Virus record (IMG/VR): IMGVR_UViG_3300039106_000357
Location: 6,739-33,303 of that record
Source of the DNA: a virus
Direction: 5' to 3' (one strand)
DNA: 26,565 bases
In this document: positions 4,244 to 26,554 of the stretch, in pieces
Position numbering within the stretch: position 1 is the stretch's first letter
Layout: every line of letters starts with the position of its first letter
Notes under the pieces: model-generated
Told to the model about the DNA's origin: nothing
The model's database searches: none
What the model saw: the letters and a program-made list of their open reading frames with translations, nothing else
Made by a program: the position numbers and the translations under genes

Positions 4244-5827
4244 ATGCCGATTACTCAAATTGCTAGAATTCAGCATCGCCGCGGCGTCAGCGATGATCTA
4301 CCCACACTGGCCAGTGCAGAGCTGGGTTGGGTTCTGGACCAGAAACGCCTTTACATTGGTAATGGCACCATTGAAGAAGGTGCGCCCAATCTAGGCAATA
4401 CAGAAATTTTAACCGAATACAGTGATGTGTTGGGACTAGCATCCACATACACATTCAAAGGTGATGCTGCCGGATTCACCGCACAAACAGGCACAACTGG
4501 TTCCAGCCCAGTAGTACGCAGCCTACAAAACAAACTGGACGATGCTGTCAACGTTCGCGACTTTGGTGCAGTGGGTGATGGCCTAACAGACGATACAGCA
4601 GCCATCAATCGTGCGCTGTTCCAGGTGTATGCTCGTTATAACAACACCACAGTGCGCCGCACTCTGTATTTCCCTGCTGGCGTCTATCTAGTATCTGACG
4701 TGGTCAAGATTCCCAGCTATGCTCGTATTCAGGGCGATGGCATTGACGCCAGTATCATTAAGCAATCTGCTTCAGGTGTTGACTGTGTGGTCAAACTGGC
4801 AGACAGCAAACAACAGGTGGATGGTAACATTGGCAACAACGGTGCCACACGCCCACAATACATGAGTGTTCAGGATATTACATTCTGGAATACTACAGAC
4901 AAACCAGTGCTGTTGATCACCAGCGCACAAAATTGTGCATTTACTCGTGTCAAGCTACAGGGTTCGTTCAGTGTGGCCAACAGTGTTAGTACATCTAGCC
5001 CATGCTTGAAAATCACCAGCACCCCCAGTTTAATCAGCAACAATATTGTCTTTGACAAATGTGAGTTTAGCGATCAGACCTATGCTTGTATTGCTGATGA
5101 TGATCAGTTTAACATTGTGTTTGCCAACAGCAAGTTCACCAACTTGTATCGTGGATTTAAGATTGGTGAATTTACAACTGGTTCAGGCTCCGCATTGGTA
5201 GGCGCACAGGGTATGAAGATTGTCAACTGTTTGTTTAACAGTGTGTACAAAGAAGGTATCCTGGGTTACAGCGTCAAGAAGATCAGCAGTATGGGCAACT
5301 ATTTCCGTGACGTGGGCAACCACTTCAACGGCACTGGCAGTCCACAAACCAACGTGATTGTGTTTGCGGCAGAAGACTGTGTTAGTATTGGTGATACTTT
5401 TGATCGCACCAATGCTGATGCCAGTTCCTATCCCCGATTGAGTGGTGCCGCATATGGCATCTACTCTGTAATTCCCAACGTGGGAGTGCAACATGGCAGC
5501 ACAGTGACTACACCAGGCCGCCAACAAACACTGACTGACAACACAGGCAGTGCTACAGCCACCACAATGACTGTGAACATTAATGATTCCAACACTGCAC
5601 AAATTTATTACCGCATCACTCGAGGTGCTACATATAGAACTGGAATTATCAAATTAGTACATAGTGCATCATCACAACTGATTGAAGATGATTACACAGA
5701 AACTGCCACTACATGTGGTGTAACATTCGCTACAAGCTACAGCAGTAATGTGACCACCATCACTTACACAACAACAAGCACTGGCACTGATGCCAATTTA
5801 AGATACGATATCAAATATAGTTTGTAA
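4244..5827 (+). CDS. Tail spike/fiber with Mtd-like N-terminus and pectate-lyase-type beta-helix
   Basis: A 527-residue receptor-binding type protein. Residues about 7-42 (RIQHRRGV... then LASAELGWVLDQKRLYIGNG) match the short N-terminal module seen in the major tropism determinant and many phage fibers, thought to attach the fiber to the particle. Residues 104-121 (VRDFGAVGDGLTDDTAAI) are the hallmark entry of the pectate_lyase_3 right-handed beta-helix, which then runs to about residue 410. The C-terminal 110 residues are Thr/Ser-rich beta-strand sequence. It could cleave or bind surface polysaccharide; no catalytic residues can be assigned by eye. It is driven by the late promoter at 4215 and isolated from other virion genes, just ahead of the nrd block. 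Confidence 0.85.
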   Translation: MPITQIARIQHRRGVSDDLPTLASAELGWVLDQKRLYIGNGTIEEGAPNLGNTEILTEYSDVLGLASTYTFKGDAAGFTAQTGTTGSSPVVRSLQNKLDDAVNVRDFGAVGDGLTDDTAAINRALFQVYARYNNTTVRRTLYFPAGVYLVSDVVKIPSYARIQGDGIDASIIKQSASGVDCVVKLADSKQQVDGNIGNNGATRPQYMSVQDITFWNTTDKPVLLITSAQNCAFTRVKLQGSFSVANSVSTSSPCLKITSTPSLISNNIVFDKCEFSDQTYACIADDDQFNIVFANSKFTNLYRGFKIGEFTTGSGSALVGAQGMKIVNCLFNSVYKEGILGYSVKKISSMGNYFRDVGNHFNGTGSPQTNVIVFAAEDCVSIGDTFDRTNADASSYPRLSGAAYGIYSVIPNVGVQHGSTVTTPGRQQTLTDNTGSATATTMTVNINDSNTAQIYYRITRGATYRTGIIKLVHSASSQLIEDDYTETATTCGVTFATSYSSNVTTITYTTTSTGTDANLRYDIKYSL

Positions 5828-16220: not shown

Positions 16221-16520
16221 ATGCGAGCTAGTGAAATCATACGCTCTGTGCTGGATCTGATTGACGAGATAGAACAGTCAGACGCTGAAACAGAATCAGC
16301 AGAACAGTTCTATTCTGACGAGAAACGACGTTTTGATCAGGTGTCTGATCTGTTGTCTCCTGAGATCACTTTTGGTCCAGCCAATGCACCCAACGAACAA
16401 TATGCCGAAATAGAGGCAGTGACCACAGCCGCTGGCGGTGGTGTAAACGGACCCAAGCATCTTGCAGACATTCGCGCTGACAGTGTGGCCATGTATCCAG
16501 GAGCCAACCATGTCCGCTAA
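16221..16520 (+). CDS. Putative virion/internal protein, late
   Basis: A 99-residue acidic protein starting MRASEIIRSVLDLIDEIEQS. The opening M-R-x-x-E-I-I-R is shared with the protein at 3031, and an I-D-E site (residues 14-16) would suit prohead-protease removal of an N-terminal targeting peptide. The middle GPANAPNEQYAEIEAVTTAA (residues about 52-71), followed by GGGVNGPKH, recalls a small family in marine T4-like phages. The late promoter is immediately upstream and AGAGGA 9 nt before the ATG. Its last 11 nt overlap the next gene, whose ribosome binding site (CAGGAG) lies inside it. Confidence 0.7.
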   Translation: MRASEIIRSVLDLIDEIEQSDAETESAEQFYSDEKRRFDQVSDLLSPEITFGPANAPNEQYAEIEAVTTAAGGGVNGPKHLADIRADSVAMYPGANHVR

Positions 16521-17154
16521 TGGTATCGCACATTTGCCCACTAGAGAAGAACGCCAGGTGGCCAAATTGGCCTTGGCCGCAGCCAAACGTGCTGCCGATG
16601 GTAACCCCAGAGCCACACTAGACATTACATTGTTGCCCACTCAATTTGACGGCAATGACACTATAGATAACCCAAATACTGGCGGGCTGATAGAAGGCCG
16701 TCCCTGGATAGCAACTGTGAGCAATTTCACATTCTACGAAGCTATCAATACTACCAGTGCATTGTCAACTACACAGTATGTGCTGGGTAATAAAATTTAT
16801 GCATACTCATCAAGTTATGATGTTCCGTCTTATCAAAATGCAAGAGTAGTATCAAACGATATTGAACTATTAAATGTAAACACCAGGGGGCACCATTTGG
16901 TAGTGTTGGATCCATTAGGCGATCTTATTAGTGCAACTAGATTTGATACCTACATTGATCCAGCAAACTTAACAGCATTGGCCACTGCCCTTGGTGCAGT
17001 ATCAAGCGGTAATATTGCAGTATTAGTGACGTATGATGCTTGTGCCTTTAATGCCGCATGTCGTTCTGCTCTTACCACAGGATACGGCTGTACCAATAGC
17101 AATACCTGGACTGCAAGTCGCCACGATCATATTTTCATAGGTGTGAAGATTTAA
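16510..17154 (+). CDS. Virion protein with ILEI/FAM3-like C-terminal domain
   Basis: A 214-residue protein. ATG 16510 (MSANGIAHLPTREERQ) is preferred over an in-frame ATG 48 nt earlier because CAGGAG stands 8 nt upstream. The N-terminal 65 residues (KLALAAAKRAADGNP, then LDITLLPTQFDGNDTIDNP and GRPW) follow a linker type common in T4-like virion proteins. The C-terminal part, from about residue 126, matches the ILEI/FAM3 (PANDER-like) pattern: RGHHLVVLDPLGDLISATRF, DTYIDP, IAVLVTYD and the final HIFIGVKI. In other proteins this domain is linked to sugar or ligand binding. It is probably a fiber or appendage tip. The second half is more AT-rich than the first. Confidence 0.75.
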   Translation: MSANGIAHLPTREERQVAKLALAAAKRAADGNPRATLDITLLPTQFDGNDTIDNPNTGGLIEGRPWIATVSNFTFYEAINTTSALSTTQYVLGNKIYAYSSSYDVPSYQNARVVSNDIELLNVNTRGHHLVVLDPLGDLISATRFDTYIDPANLTALATALGAVSSGNIAVLVTYDACAFNAACRSALTTGYGCTNSNTWTASRHDHIFIGVKI

Positions 17155-21890: not shown

Positions 21891-22265
21891 ATGGAAGCTG
21901 TCAGCCGATTCATTACTGCCCCTGATCTGGACTACGGATTGTCCTACCGAGTCCTGTTGGTGGGCGCCACTGCTGATGACATCGCCCGTATCACATTCTT
22001 TTTCAAGCACTCGGACATTGCTGTAGACATCTATCTGCATGATGGCAATGTTGAAAATCAGGGCTGGTTGATGAATGTGGTGGATCAGGTGGAAGTCATA
22101 TTACTTAGAACATCCAAGCAACCGTCTCCAGTGGAACGATTGCTCATGCAGAATTACAAAACAATTCCGTTCTATGAACCCGAATTGCCAGTAAGCACCC
22201 GTTTTAAAACACCGTTGGACTTTTTTGAATGGTACTCTGAAAATGCCGGAAAAAGCAACAGCTAA
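21891..22265 (+). CDS. Conserved-type phage hypothetical protein
   Basis: A 124-residue soluble alpha/beta protein. The strand-turn-helix YRVLLVGATADDIARITFFF (about 19-38) followed by DIAVDIYLHDG and QVEVILLR looks like a Rossmann or receiver-type arrangement, without a recognisable phosphate-binding motif. It has no ribosome binding site and its ATG coincides with the predicted late start. The 3' end overlaps clpX by 23 nt in another frame. No function is known. Confidence 0.65.
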   Translation: MEAVSRFITAPDLDYGLSYRVLLVGATADDIARITFFFKHSDIAVDIYLHDGNVENQGWLMNVVDQVEVILLRTSKQPSPVERLLMQNYKTIPFYEPELPVSTRFKTPLDFFEWYSENAGKSNS

Positions 22266-23448
22266 AGAACAGATCAATTGCAACTTCTGCGGCAAGACTC
22301 GCAAAGAAGTGGCCAAATTGATTGTGGCTAACGATGCAGGCATCTGTAACGAGTGCATTGATTTATGCAACAACATACTAAAGACTTCTGCTAAAGTGGA
22401 AGTGACCAAGTACGATGCTGAGCGTCTGAATCCCGAAGCTATTAAGGAGTATCTGGATCAGTTCGTAATTGGGCAAGATGCGGCCAAACGTGCGCTGAGT
22501 GTGGCCGTGGTCAATCACTTCAAGCGTATTGGTAACACTACAGAGGTCACACTGGACAAAAGCAACATCATGATCCTGGGACCCACAGGCTCGGGCAAAA
22601 CACTGATGGCCAAGACGCTGGCCAAATATCTGGATCTACCCATTGTGATTGCTGATGCCACTACGCTGACTGAAGCAGGCTATGTGGGGCAGGATGTGGA
22701 CAGTGTGATCAGCAGTCTGTTTGTTGCTGCCAACTACGATGTGGACAAGTGCCAGCAGGGCATCATATTCCTGGACGAAGTGGACAAGATTGGCCGCAAG
22801 GGTGACGAAGGCAGTAACACCCGTGACGTATCTGGTGAGGGTGTACAACAGGCACTACTCAAACTGGTTGAAGGCACCAGATGCAAAATATCACCACCAG
22901 CTGGCAATCGCAAGTTCAATGTGTACGACCAGATTGAGATAGATACCAGCAACATTCTGTTTATTGCCAGCGGTGCGTTTGTGGGACTGGACAAAGTGAT
23001 CAGCAATCGCACCAGCAGTATCAGTATAGGCTTTAACGCCAACGTGGACAAAGCACCCAAAGACCCCAATGTAATACCCACAGATCTTATTAAATTCGGG
23101 CTGATTCCCGAGTTCTGTGGCAGATTCCCTGTGCTGGTACACACAAACGAGCTACAGTTGTCCGACTACTTGGCCATCCTGACCAACGTCAAGAACTCAG
23201 TTATTGAACAATCCAAAGTGTATTTTGACATAGACCAAGTACAGTTGGAGTTTACCACAGACGCACTAGAAGAAATAGCCACACAAGCACATAAATTGGG
23301 GTTGGGTGCTCGTGGGTTAAAAACCATAACAGAACGCATACTGATGCCCATCATGTATCAGTTGCCCAGGATACGAGCCCAGGGCCACAAGAATATACAA
23401 ATAAATGCGGAAACTGTTAAATATAACACTGACCCAATTTATGGATAA
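22243..23448 (+). CDS. clpX: ClpX-like AAA+ unfoldase
   Basis: A 401-residue ClpX. ATG 22243 is preferred (MPEKATAKEQ) because the zinc cysteines then fall at C13, C16, C35, C38, two residues from the E. coli numbering; an ATG 18 nt earlier is possible. The order is intact: zinc-binding domain, Walker A GPTGSGKT (113-120), pore loop GYVGQD (146-151), Walker B IIFLDEVDK (174-182), DVSGEGVQQALLKLVEG (195-211), ClpP-docking IGF (262-264), Arg finger in GRFPV (R294), sensor 2 GARGL (R357). The RKH loop reads RKF (223-225), and the protein ends about 20 residues short of E. coli ClpX. It may redirect host ClpP or act as a chaperone. No clpP is in this window. Confidence 0.93.
   Translation: MPEKATAKEQINCNFCGKTRKEVAKLIVANDAGICNECIDLCNNILKTSAKVEVTKYDAERLNPEAIKEYLDQFVIGQDAAKRALSVAVVNHFKRIGNTTEVTLDKSNIMILGPTGSGKTLMAKTLAKYLDLPIVIADATTLTEAGYVGQDVDSVISSLFVAANYDVDKCQQGIIFLDEVDKIGRKGDEGSNTRDVSGEGVQQALLKLVEGTRCKISPPAGNRKFNVYDQIEIDTSNILFIASGAFVGLDKVISNRTSSISIGFNANVDKAPKDPNVIPTDLIKFGLIPEFCGRFPVLVHTNELQLSDYLAILTNVKNSVIEQSKVYFDIDQVQLEFTTDALEEIATQAHKLGLGARGLKTITERILMPIMYQLPRIRAQGHKNIQINAETVKYNTDPIYG
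23418..23423 (+). promoter_or_regulatory. T4-type late promoter core (TAAATA)
   Basis: TTAAATATAAC inside the final codons of clpX. Predicted start near 23429; leader about 30 nt with GGAG at 23451-23454 before the bS21 ATG. Confidence 0.45.
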
Positions 23449-23458
23449 ACGGAGAAAC

Positions 23459-23692
23459 ATGAGTAAACCAGTTATATTATACGGAAGTGTAGTTCACGTT
23501 ACCGACGGTAATGTAGAGCGAGCTTTACGTAAATTCAAGAAAAAGATCCAGGATTCTGGCAAACTGCAAGAATTGCGTGACCGTGAGTTTTATGAAAAGC
23601 CCACAACACAGCGAAAGAAAGCAGCCAGCTCAGCCAAGAACCGCTGGAACAAAAAAATCGCGGCCCAATCACTACCTAAAAAGCTGTACTAA
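23459..23692 (+). CDS. rpsU: Ribosomal protein bS21
   Basis: A 77-residue bS21. The start MSKPVILYGSVVHV (ATG 23459) follows ACGGAG closely; an in-frame ATG 54 nt upstream lies inside clpX and would add a non-homologous extension. Family marks: NVERALRKFKKKIQDSGKL (18-36), REFYEKPTTQRKK (42-54) and the C-terminal LY. bS21 sits on the 30S platform near the anti-Shine-Dalgarno helix and affects initiation; phage copies are known and can enter host ribosomes. Here the N-terminus is a little longer (LYGSVVHVTD) than in E. coli. The stop shares a base with the radical SAM start (TAATG). Confidence 0.93.
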   Translation: MSKPVILYGSVVHVTDGNVERALRKFKKKIQDSGKLQELRDREFYEKPTTQRKKAASSAKNRWNKKIAAQSLPKKLY

Positions 23693-25248
23693 TGGCTTAT
23701 GACGTCGTAATATTCACCGATGCGATCGGTGGGTTCCTTCACCTTAAGCCCATGGGCGCCTATCGCATTGCATCCGAACTGCGAGCTCATGGATACACCA
23801 CCAAAGTGGTGGACTTGTCCTATCAGATCTTCAAGGATCGGGCACTGTCCATGCGTTTGCTCAACAAGCTGATTGGTGATAACACTCTATTTGTGGGATT
23901 CAGCACCACACACATGTACAAAGCTGACGTGCTAAAAGAAGACTTTAAAAATGACGGTCGCTTTAGCATTGAACAGGGACAAAAGCAGTATGCCTATCCC
24001 CTGGAAGAAAAGAGTTTCGACAAACTGCTGGGCTATTACAAAAACCGATTCCCACAACTGCGAGTGGTACTGGGTGGAGTTTATGCCACTGACAGTCTAC
24101 TAGCGCCCAAGACTGTGGACTACATGATCGACGGTTATGCTGATGTCATGGTGGTGGAACTGGCCAATCACTTGCGTAAGGGCACACCACTCAAGTGGCG
24201 CCCATCAGCAGTGCCACATGCCAAACTGATTGACTATGACAAACTGGGTCAGAGCTTTGACTTTGCTCACAGTGTCACACGTTACGAAGAATGGGATCAC
24301 ATTGCTCCTGGCGAGACCATGTGCCTGGAAACCAGCCGTGGCTGCATGTTCAAATGTCAGTTCTGTGATTACCCACTGCTGGGTCGCAAAAAGACTGATC
24401 CCACCTACGTCAAGTATGTGGACACACTGGCGGCGGAACTAAAAGATAATTGGGAACGATTTGGTGTCAAGACCTATGTGATTGTGGATTCCACATTTAA
24501 CGAAAGTACAGACAAGCTGTTGGCCATCTGGGAAGCTATCAAACAGTCGGGTGTGGACGTGAAGTTCAAAGCATTTATCCGAATTGATCTGTTATGGAAG
24601 TTCCCCGAGCAGGTGGAGATACTACGTGACATGGGACTGATATCAGCATTCTTTGGTATTGAAAGTCTCAATGCTGAGTCACTGAAATCCATCAATAAAA
24701 ACTACACCATGGAAAAACTACAGGAGTTCCTGCCAGTGCTGAATGCCGCCTGGGCAGGGCGTGTGTCCACCATGGCCAGTTTTATCATCGGCTTGCCACA
24801 TGAGACACCTGAAACGTTCAACAAGTGGTGGGGCTGGCTGGAAGAACATCCCGAATGTTTTGACAGCATGTTGTTGCACACACTGGAGATCCGTAACAAG
24901 AACAGCTGGAAGAGTATGTTTGGTACTGGGCCTGAACAGTTTGGTTACGAACTGATTGACCAGTTGCCTGGCGATGTTAGAATTAAACACACCTGGCAAA
25001 ACGAACACTGGAGCAACCTGGAGTGTGAGAACATCACACAGTCCAAGCGACAGTGGTTGCACTTTAACCGACGCATGACCATCAGCAACTGGTTGATTGT
25101 GGCGTTCATGAGTCTAGGGTACACGTTTGAAGAAATGTACCGCAAGCCCACACTGGACTGGGACTGGTTGGAATTAAATCGTCGACTGGATGCGTTCAAG
25201 CAGGACTACATCCGTCGCTTATGTGAATATGAAGGTGTTGAACTATGA
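23692..25248 (+). CDS. Radical SAM protein with N-terminal B12-binding-like domain
   Basis: A 518-residue protein. Residues 1-160 have the Rossmann layout of the cobalamin-binding domain of class B-type radical SAM enzymes (HLKPMGAYRIASELRAHGY at 17-35; VVLGGVYAT at 125-133), but no DxHxxG lower-ligand motif. The radical SAM core begins at CLETSRGCMFKCQFC, with cluster cysteines C218, C222, C225, and includes FFGIESLNAESLKSINK (GIES motif) later on. The last 110 residues are Trp-rich and unassigned. The substrate is unknown. It is coupled on both sides: TAATG with rpsU, ATGA with the DUF3050 gene. It may be a methyltransferase, a methylthiotransferase-like or another radical modification enzyme; no TRAM domain is visible. 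Confidence 0.88.
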   Translation: MAYDVVIFTDAIGGFLHLKPMGAYRIASELRAHGYTTKVVDLSYQIFKDRALSMRLLNKLIGDNTLFVGFSTTHMYKADVLKEDFKNDGRFSIEQGQKQYAYPLEEKSFDKLLGYYKNRFPQLRVVLGGVYATDSLLAPKTVDYMIDGYADVMVVELANHLRKGTPLKWRPSAVPHAKLIDYDKLGQSFDFAHSVTRYEEWDHIAPGETMCLETSRGCMFKCQFCDYPLLGRKKTDPTYVKYVDTLAAELKDNWERFGVKTYVIVDSTFNESTDKLLAIWEAIKQSGVDVKFKAFIRIDLLWKFPEQVEILRDMGLISAFFGIESLNAESLKSINKNYTMEKLQEFLPVLNAAWAGRVSTMASFIIGLPHETPETFNKWWGWLEEHPECFDSMLLHTLEIRNKNSWKSMFGTGPEQFGYELIDQLPGDVRIKHTWQNEHWSNLECENITQSKRQWLHFNRRMTISNWLIVAFMSLGYTFEEMYRKPTLDWDWLELNRRLDAFKQDYIRRLCEYEGVEL

Positions 25249-26012
25249 ACATGATACTGGATCGTATCCGTAAAGAACAATATGTGCTGGGCCAGCATCC
25301 GATCTTTGCCCAGCCCACAATACAGAACATTGAGGAACTGCGAACATTCATGGAGAGTCATGTGTATGCAGTCTGGGACTTTATGAGCCTGCTCAAGACT
25401 CTACAACACACACTGGCGCCCACCACTGTGCCCTGGGTGCCCACCACATACAATCGTTCCAAGAGCGCACGATTAATTAACGAGATCGTCATGGTGGAAG
25501 AGACTGACGAGTTTATCACTGGTGGCAGCACCAGCCACTTTGATCTGTATTGCCAGGCCATGATGGAGATTGGTGCTGACACTGGCCCCATTATGAATTT
25601 TATCGAGATGGTTAAAAGCAGGGGTGTGCCATCTGCACTGGAACTGGCATGTGTTCCGCCCGAGAGTGCTGCCTTTGTGCGTTCCACTTTTGATGTGATC
25701 AACAGCGGCAAGTTACATTGTGTGGCTGGGGTGTTCTGCTTCAGTAGGGAAACACTGATCAGCGACATGTTCCGCACACTGCTGGCACAGTTGAAAATTG
25801 GACAAGCCAATGCACCACGCTTCTATCACTATCTGGATCGCCATATCGAAATCGACGGCGATGCCCACGGTCCAGCCAGTCTGGATCTAATCGAACTGTT
25901 GTGCGAAAATCAACCCATGCGAGCTGTAGAAGCCGAGCAGGCAGCGATTGCGGCTATCCATGCCCGTATTGAATTGTGGGATCAGATCTACAAACGCATC
26001 AAGTCAAAATAA
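25245..26012 (+). CDS. DUF3050 / heme-oxygenase-like fold protein
   Basis: A 255-residue helical protein that I read as DUF3050. Features: HPIFAQ (18-23), the first helix FMESHVYAVWDFMSLLK (35-51), INEIVMVEETDE (78-89), SHFDLYCQAMMEIGAD (97-112), FDVINSG...VAGVFCFSRE (149-169) and the signature HIEIDGDAHGPASLDL (200-215). The helix order and spaced Glu/His (candidate ligands E37, H39, E85/E86, H98, H200, E202, D206, H208) fit the heme-oxygenase-like fold, some members of which are diiron oxidases. Metal use here is inferred. It overlaps the radical SAM gene by 4 nt, so the two may act in one pathway. Confidence 0.78.
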   Translation: MNMILDRIRKEQYVLGQHPIFAQPTIQNIEELRTFMESHVYAVWDFMSLLKTLQHTLAPTTVPWVPTTYNRSKSARLINEIVMVEETDEFITGGSTSHFDLYCQAMMEIGADTGPIMNFIEMVKSRGVPSALELACVPPESAAFVRSTFDVINSGKLHCVAGVFCFSRETLISDMFRTLLAQLKIGQANAPRFYHYLDRHIEIDGDAHGPASLDLIELLCENQPMRAVEAEQAAIAAIHARIELWDQIYKRIKSK

Positions 26013-26113: not shown

Positions 26114-26554
26114 ATGGCAGAACTACACCTACGTACTCTGGGTCTTCCTGAGTTTTCACGTCACGCTATTGGCTTTGACCGTTTATTCAACGAAATGGAA
26201 AAGACTTTTGCCAATACACGCACAGACAATTACCCACCATATAACATCGTCAAACTGGACGACACTCACTATATGATTGAGGTAGCCGTTGCTGGGTTCG
26301 CCGAAGATGAGATCGATATTGAACTAAAAGAGTCCACATTGATCATCAAGGGTGCTCAGGTCAAACGTGAAACAGAAGCCGAGTATGTTCACCGTGGAAT
26401 CAGCTCGCGCAGTTTTGAGCGCACATTCACTCTGGCAGACAACATGGAAGTTCGTAACGCATCAGTGCGTAACGGCGTCCTGAGTGTGGACCTAGAGCAT
26501 GTGGTTCCTGAAGAGCAGAAACCCAAGAAAATCCAGATTACTTTCCAGAAGTAA
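26114..26554 (+). CDS. Small heat-shock protein, Hsp20/IbpA-like
   Basis: A 146-residue Hsp20. A short N-terminal arm (LHLRTLGLPEFSRHAIGFDR) precedes the alpha-crystallin domain, about residues 40-135, with YNIVKLDDTHYMIEVAVAGF, then SFERTFTLADNMEV and ASVRNGVLSVDLEH. The C-terminal IxI anchor is present as I140-Q-I142, so oligomer assembly and holdase activity should be intact. Hsp20 genes are common in T4-like phages of bacterioplankton and may protect folding virion proteins. AAAGGAG lies 7 nt upstream. The gene has its own early plus late promoter and a structured leader, so it is probably expressed throughout infection. The window ends 11 nt after its stop. Confidence 0.95.
   Translation: MAELHLRTLGLPEFSRHAIGFDRLFNEMEKTFANTRTDNYPPYNIVKLDDTHYMIEVAVAGFAEDEIDIELKESTLIIKGAQVKRETEAEYVHRGISSRSFERTFTLADNMEVRNASVRNGVLSVDLEHVVPEEQKPKKIQITFQK

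Follow-up and report, generated by a model that had tools for sequence, protein, structure and literature searches.

A full-length ClpX with an intact ClpP-docking loop in an uncultivated phage that lacks clpP at its conserved slot

The window, a stretch of 26,565 nucleotides from virus record IMGVR_UViG_3300039106_000357, carries a clpX gene (Table 1) whose product keeps its ClpP-docking loop, in a record where clpP is absent from the slot that it occupies in relatives. With a probability of about 0.55, we favor the reading that this is a working ClpX unfoldase of a long-standing phage lineage, that ClpP of the host is its likeliest partner, and that the RKF sequence in place of RKH weakens its recognition of the ssrA tag. 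The predicted assembly is an ATP-driven hexamer that unfolds substrates and passes them into a ClpP docked at its IGF loops; it would be one part of a phage Clp kit that includes ClpX, ClpA, ClpP, ClpS, and Hsp20. Jumbo phages equipped with unfoldases, adaptors, and proteases could rewrite host protein turnover, and the locus offers a natural example of a docking loop that persists where the protease gene is gone.

Table 1. Features of the clpX region, in window positions except where the record is named.
Feature	Position	Strand	Description or evidence
Putative 124-aa protein, directly 5' of clpX	21891..22265	+	ORF
clpX, 401 aa	22243..23448	+	full-length ClpX with zinc domain, IGF loop, and RKF replacing RKH
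ClpX zinc-binding domain, residues 13-38 (C13, C16, C35, C38)	22279..22356	+	PF06689; 4/4 Cys kept
RKH-loop position, RKF, residues 223-225	22909..22917	+	alignment
IGF ClpP-docking motif, residues 262-264	23026..23034	+	alignment
rpsU, ribosomal protein bS21	23459..23692	+	PF01165, TIGR00030
Radical SAM protein, inserted in the cassette of the window phage	23692..25248	+	PF04055
DUF3050 (haem-oxygenase-like) protein, inserted in the cassette	25245..26012	+	PF11251
hsp20, IbpA-like small heat-shock protein	26114..26554	+	PF00011
clpS	record 33339-33650, start 36 bp past the right edge of the window		PF02617, 5.6e-23

Identity and setting of the phage clpX

The gene encodes a bona fide full-length ClpX. 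Its product scores 470.7 against TIGR00382, the NCBIfam clpX equivalog (cut-off 370.75), over residues 7-396, and also passes NF003745; the zinc domain reaches 48.2 bits against PF06689 (cut-off 27). These matches bear out the initial annotation, which had called the ClpX complete, and the alignment contains every element listed there as kept: the zinc cysteines (CNFC and CNEC), the Walker motifs, the GYVG pore loop, sensor 2, and the IGF loop. The AAA+ set is intact, with Walker A and B, sensors 1 and 2, the arginine finger, and the pore-2 loop, and the motifs read besides GYVG are GPTGSGKT, FLDEVD, RDVSGEGVQQ, SIGFNANV, and GARGL. The alignment also agrees that RKF replaces RKH. The RKH motif, the ssrA contact loop, is typical of ClpX and not strictly defining; it varies among proteins that pass the ClpX family model, so RKF is no bar to membership. 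A single-chain AlphaFold2 model based on an alignment of 18 phage sequences has a mean pLDDT of 74, with low values in the IGF loop region (259-281), and its best Foldseek matches are ClpX chains in ClpXP structures (E down to 3.7e-41). One earlier claim, that the zinc domain is divergent in sequence, did not survive. Identity to bacterial ClpX (n=6) is nearly the same for the zinc domain (50.5%) and the AAA+ part (51.6%), and the gap between them ranks 94th of 105 counted from the most zinc-divergent, among the smallest in the viral set.

In the tree, the window ClpX falls in a starred viral clade (99*) within a larger phage clade that holds PA5oct, Phosso, and Atu_ph07, which rules out a recent host origin of the gene. 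The ClpX proteins of phage G and the Lak phages group with Bacilli-type and Bacteroidota-type sequences. No close relative came up when viral contigs were searched with the window ClpX as sole query. The window ClpX has the longest end branch among uncultivated viral ClpX, and this, together with the departure from RKH, could be read as decay under relaxed selection after the loss of clpP. Such decay is very unlikely: catalytic, pore, sensor, and docking residues are all intact in the 401-aa reading frame, and the pace of change is matched in other genes of this phage, the ratio of own to relatives' branches being 2-3.7 for clpX vs 0.7-3.9 for most of the others. The same relative-rate comparison rejects an acceleration specific to ClpX.

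The source is a 67,715-bp virus record, a fragment of a larger genome that is probably that of a 240-370 kb phage and of which it covers perhaps ~20-25%. The gene belongs to a strongly conserved cassette, clpX-rpsU-hsp20-clpS, for which a literature search of open-licence papers returned no description. Among 62 viral clpX loci for which 4.5 kb or more of downstream sequence is available, all selected by similarity to the window ClpX and some of them near-duplicate contigs, hsp20 and clpS lie within 5 kb downstream on the same strand in 61, and rpsU does so in 51. The likely start of rpsU at 23459 is preceded by GGAG, and a longer reading frame begins at 23405. Weak homologues of the 124-aa upstream protein adjoin clpX on its upstream side, or rpsU in relatives that lack clpX. 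The radical SAM gene has no equivalent around clpX in the nearest relatives, and the DUF3050 gene proved uninformative for identifying the host, its best bacterial matches (48-49%) lying in unrelated phyla.

A second phage group has the cassette without clpX. The ClpX zinc domain is absent from 29 of 30 records selected by clpS, several of which have ClpP, and from two records of near genome size (G117 and G118, the records of L228 and L229, at 357 and 339 kb) that encode ClpA and ClpP. Given these absences, clpX is dispensable in this phage group.

Other genes of the record are observations in their own right. An ILEI-domain (PF15711) protein at window 16510-17154 lies directly 5' of the virion structural genes, and window 4244-5827 encodes a tail-spike-like protein that combines an Mtd N-terminal domain with a pectate-lyase-like one. 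Outside the window, record 36025-38258 (window-equivalent 29287-31520) holds the curli secretion genes for CsgF and CsgG and a curlin-repeat protein. Pelagibacter phage HTVC008M and Methylophilales phage Melnitz encode homologues of CsgG (44-48%), and so do many viral contigs, the sibling L092 (96%) among them. Next to the curli genes, record 38421-44086 encodes a FecR-domain protein, an 852-aa protein, and a CHASE2-adenylate/guanylate cyclase that is 41-43% identical to the HTVC008M and Melnitz cyclases.

Docking loop and the missing clpP

Three ClpX side chains, Ile268, Phe270, and Val274, pack into ClpP (PMC7112951), and all three are kept in the window ClpX (IGFNANV). A search for IGF loss in relatives found the loop retained, with the phenylalanine present in 86/86 distinct viral ClpX and the isoleucine position occupied by I, M, or V. 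Because the three side chains are kept and the phenylalanine is invariant, feeding of a ClpP by the window ClpX is well supported at the level of sequence. Which ClpP this would be is a separate question, and it turns on a second locus.

The window record is syntenic with two relatives, G001 and the 320-kb G002. In 34 of the 36 relatives whose sequence extends far enough, clpP comes next after the SprT-like gene, in many cases at a distance of 4-56 bp, a count that leaves out the 29-bit entry of L214 (an amidoligase ORF); the weak ClpP-like match in an 819-aa ORF of relatives is an amidoligase. The order sprT-clpP-endonuclease-GP88 is seen in L198, L200, and L204. In the window record, the endonuclease gene comes ~57 bp after sprT (record 54220-54705), a clean junction with clpP absent from the slot, and neither Pfam PF00574 nor a sensitive profile from diverse phage ClpPs detects a ClpP in the 67,715 bp. 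The loss of clpP from its conserved slot is thus real. Because the record is a fragment, the initial statement that there is no ClpP stands for its 67.7 kb, and a copy relocated elsewhere in the genome is possible.

The family is not generally without ClpP, which is encoded in 28 of 35 clpX-bearing viral relatives, many with two copies. Among records >200 kb, ClpP and ClpA (with a Clp_N domain) are found together in 10/11 that have clpX and 3/3 that do not. In the first ClpP of these relatives, the Ser-His-Asp triad is intact, as are the docking pocket and the equivalent of Arg192. The second (L185-L189; about 100 bits), often 2-4 kb from the first, is divergent, with a full triad and without Arg192 and most IGF-pocket residues; it is possibly a mixed-ring subunit. 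All seven phage ClpAs examined (L177-L183; about 760 aa) carry an IGF loop at the position where E. coli ClpA has IGL. Judged from its genes, the family overall is equipped with phage-encoded ClpXP and ClpAP, served by a ClpS adaptor. In G002, ClpA lies ~98 kb from clpX; at that spacing clpA would fall outside the 67.7-kb record, among whose annotated ORFs it is not seen.

This distribution lends some weight to a second reading, in which the phage encodes its own ClpP in a part of the genome outside the record and ClpX pairs with it as in relatives. The share of relatives with ClpP and the completeness of the longer records, set against the shortness of this one, speak for it. The tight link of sprT and clpP in relatives and the clean junction that lacks clpP here speak against it, as do L214 and L215, the two remaining relatives in which clpP does not follow sprT, which have none elsewhere in 53 and 127 kb. 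We regard a phage ClpP encoded elsewhere as possible, though clearly the less probable arrangement.

A further reading dispenses with ClpP: the protein would be a chaperone that remodels complexes of phage replication or assembly, much as host ClpX does with the Mu transposase. Such a role would fit a record without ClpP and a clpX placed slightly downstream of the virion structural genes, and Iyer et al. propose that phage ClpX serves in assembly or as a translocase (PMC7824862). However, the IGF loop is intact here and conserved across the clade, and its loss would be expected over so long a branch in a protein freed from ClpP, which makes this role unlikely.

The use of host ClpP is the reading that we prefer. 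Because clpP has been lost from the slot beside sprT while the docking loop is intact, host ClpP would be the likeliest partner. The original suggestion that the phage unfoldase could feed host ClpP is therefore retained as plausible for the window phage, but not as a rule of the family, whose members encode a ClpP of their own, one with a docking pocket to match. Several points weigh against the preferred reading: most of the genome probably lies outside the record, clpX is dispensable in the group, the IGF loop is modelled with low confidence, and departures from RKH are common in phage ClpX, also where the phage has ClpP.

The RKF loop, ClpS, and substrate choice

The ssrA tag is contacted by the side chains of Tyr153, Val154, Thr199, Val202, Arg228, and His230 of ClpX, and the H230A substitution in E. 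coli ClpX raises the KM for GFP-ssrA from 1.3 to 140-240 uM (PMC7652416). Only one of these six, His230, is changed in the window ClpX, to phenylalanine. His230 is present in 36/36 bacterial ClpX and in 69/86 distinct viral ClpX, and the tree requires at least seven changes at the position. Loss of His230 is a recurrent feature of phage ClpX, found also in phages with ClpP. Since it recurs in phages and is absent from the 36 bacterial proteins, weaker ssrA recognition by the window ClpX is plausible. The change would lower recognition of ordinary host substrates that bear the ssrA tag, leaving the machine available for others chosen by the phage.

A tie between the loss of RKH and the loss of ClpP is not seen. 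Phages with RKS-, RKT-, RKN-, or RKM-type loops also encode ClpP, so variation of the loop is not specific to a switch of protease. A search for ssrA-like tags in phage proteins found none: 0 of 87 phage ORFs of at least 60 aa end in Ala-Ala. The earlier idea of retargeted proteolysis is thus only partly upheld. It is possible, given that His230 matters for ssrA and is repeatedly lost in phage ClpX, but its zinc-domain argument fails, and the fast evolution of clpX is common to other genes of the phage.

ClpS of the window phage is also altered. It matches PF02617 but falls below the NCBIfam ClpS equivalog cut-offs. Relative to E. coli ClpS, it keeps N34 and D35 and carries D36A, M40A, and H66D, five positions that we take to form the N-degron pocket. 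The sibling L092 (97%) has the same altered pocket as the window phage (L003:14339-14650), and His66 is kept in nearly all other viral ClpS. A bolder version of the preferred reading would have a lineage that once had its own ClpP drop it, change both substrate selectors (Phe for His230 in ClpX; Asp for His66, Ala for Asp36, and Ala for Met40 in ClpS), and take over host ClpP through degradation signals of its own, to the exclusion of the ordinary ssrA and N-degron substrates of the host. This extension is rather unlikely.

The close association of clpX and clpS, neighbors in nearly all of the clpX loci, could instead mean that phage ClpS is an adaptor for the window ClpX rather than for ClpA. 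That is very improbable: clpS is kept with hsp20 and rpsU when clpX is absent (clpX is near only 10 of 50 clpS loci), and phage ClpA is present in the lineages without clpX. At the positions of E79 and K84 of E. coli ClpS, its ClpA contacts, the viral ClpS proteins are almost invariant. A ClpS that serves ClpX only is disfavored by the same persistence and by the IGF loop that the ClpA of those lineages has of its own.

Comparison with known systems

The window ClpX resembles bacterial ClpX (TIGR00382; E. coli ClpX, PDB 6wrf, 6po1, 8e91) in domain order, zinc cysteines, Walker A and B, GYVG, IGF, and sensor 2, at ~50% identity. It differs in the phenylalanine at His230 and in its surroundings, a phage cassette of rpsU, hsp20, and clpS where bacterial clpX has clpP beside it. 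Human mitochondrial ClpX likewise has a residue other than histidine in place of His230, which fits an enzyme that does not recognize ssrA (PMC7652416), but it has leucine at Thr199, where the window ClpX keeps threonine.

ClpX, ClpA, ClpP, and ClpS of phage origin have already been reported in jumbo phages (PMC6102473, PMC11242549, PMC7824862). Atu_ph07, AP-J-162, and Phosso share with the window phage a phage-encoded ClpX, and several Clp proteins are reported for them, those named for Atu_ph07 being ClpA, ClpB, ClpP, and ClpS (PMC6102473, PMC11242549). The ClpX proteins of Atu_ph07 and Phosso belong to the same larger clade as the window ClpX, but they have RKN rather than RKF, and clpX in the three phages lies beside IF-3 and topoisomerase genes instead of in the rpsU-hsp20-clpS cassette. 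The Pseudomonas jumbo phage PA5oct (MK797984) has the order clpX-rpsU-..-hsp20-clpS, whereas its ClpX is 42% identical, its RKH loop is replaced (SNSMFS), and ftsH is nearby. Four uncultivated jumbo phages (L012-L015; 81-354 kb) have the same cassette, syntenic flanks, and 57-58% ClpX identity. Unlike the window phage, they have clpP, located beside sprT where examined (G001 and G002), and KKH in place of RKF, and ClpA is present in the three longer records.
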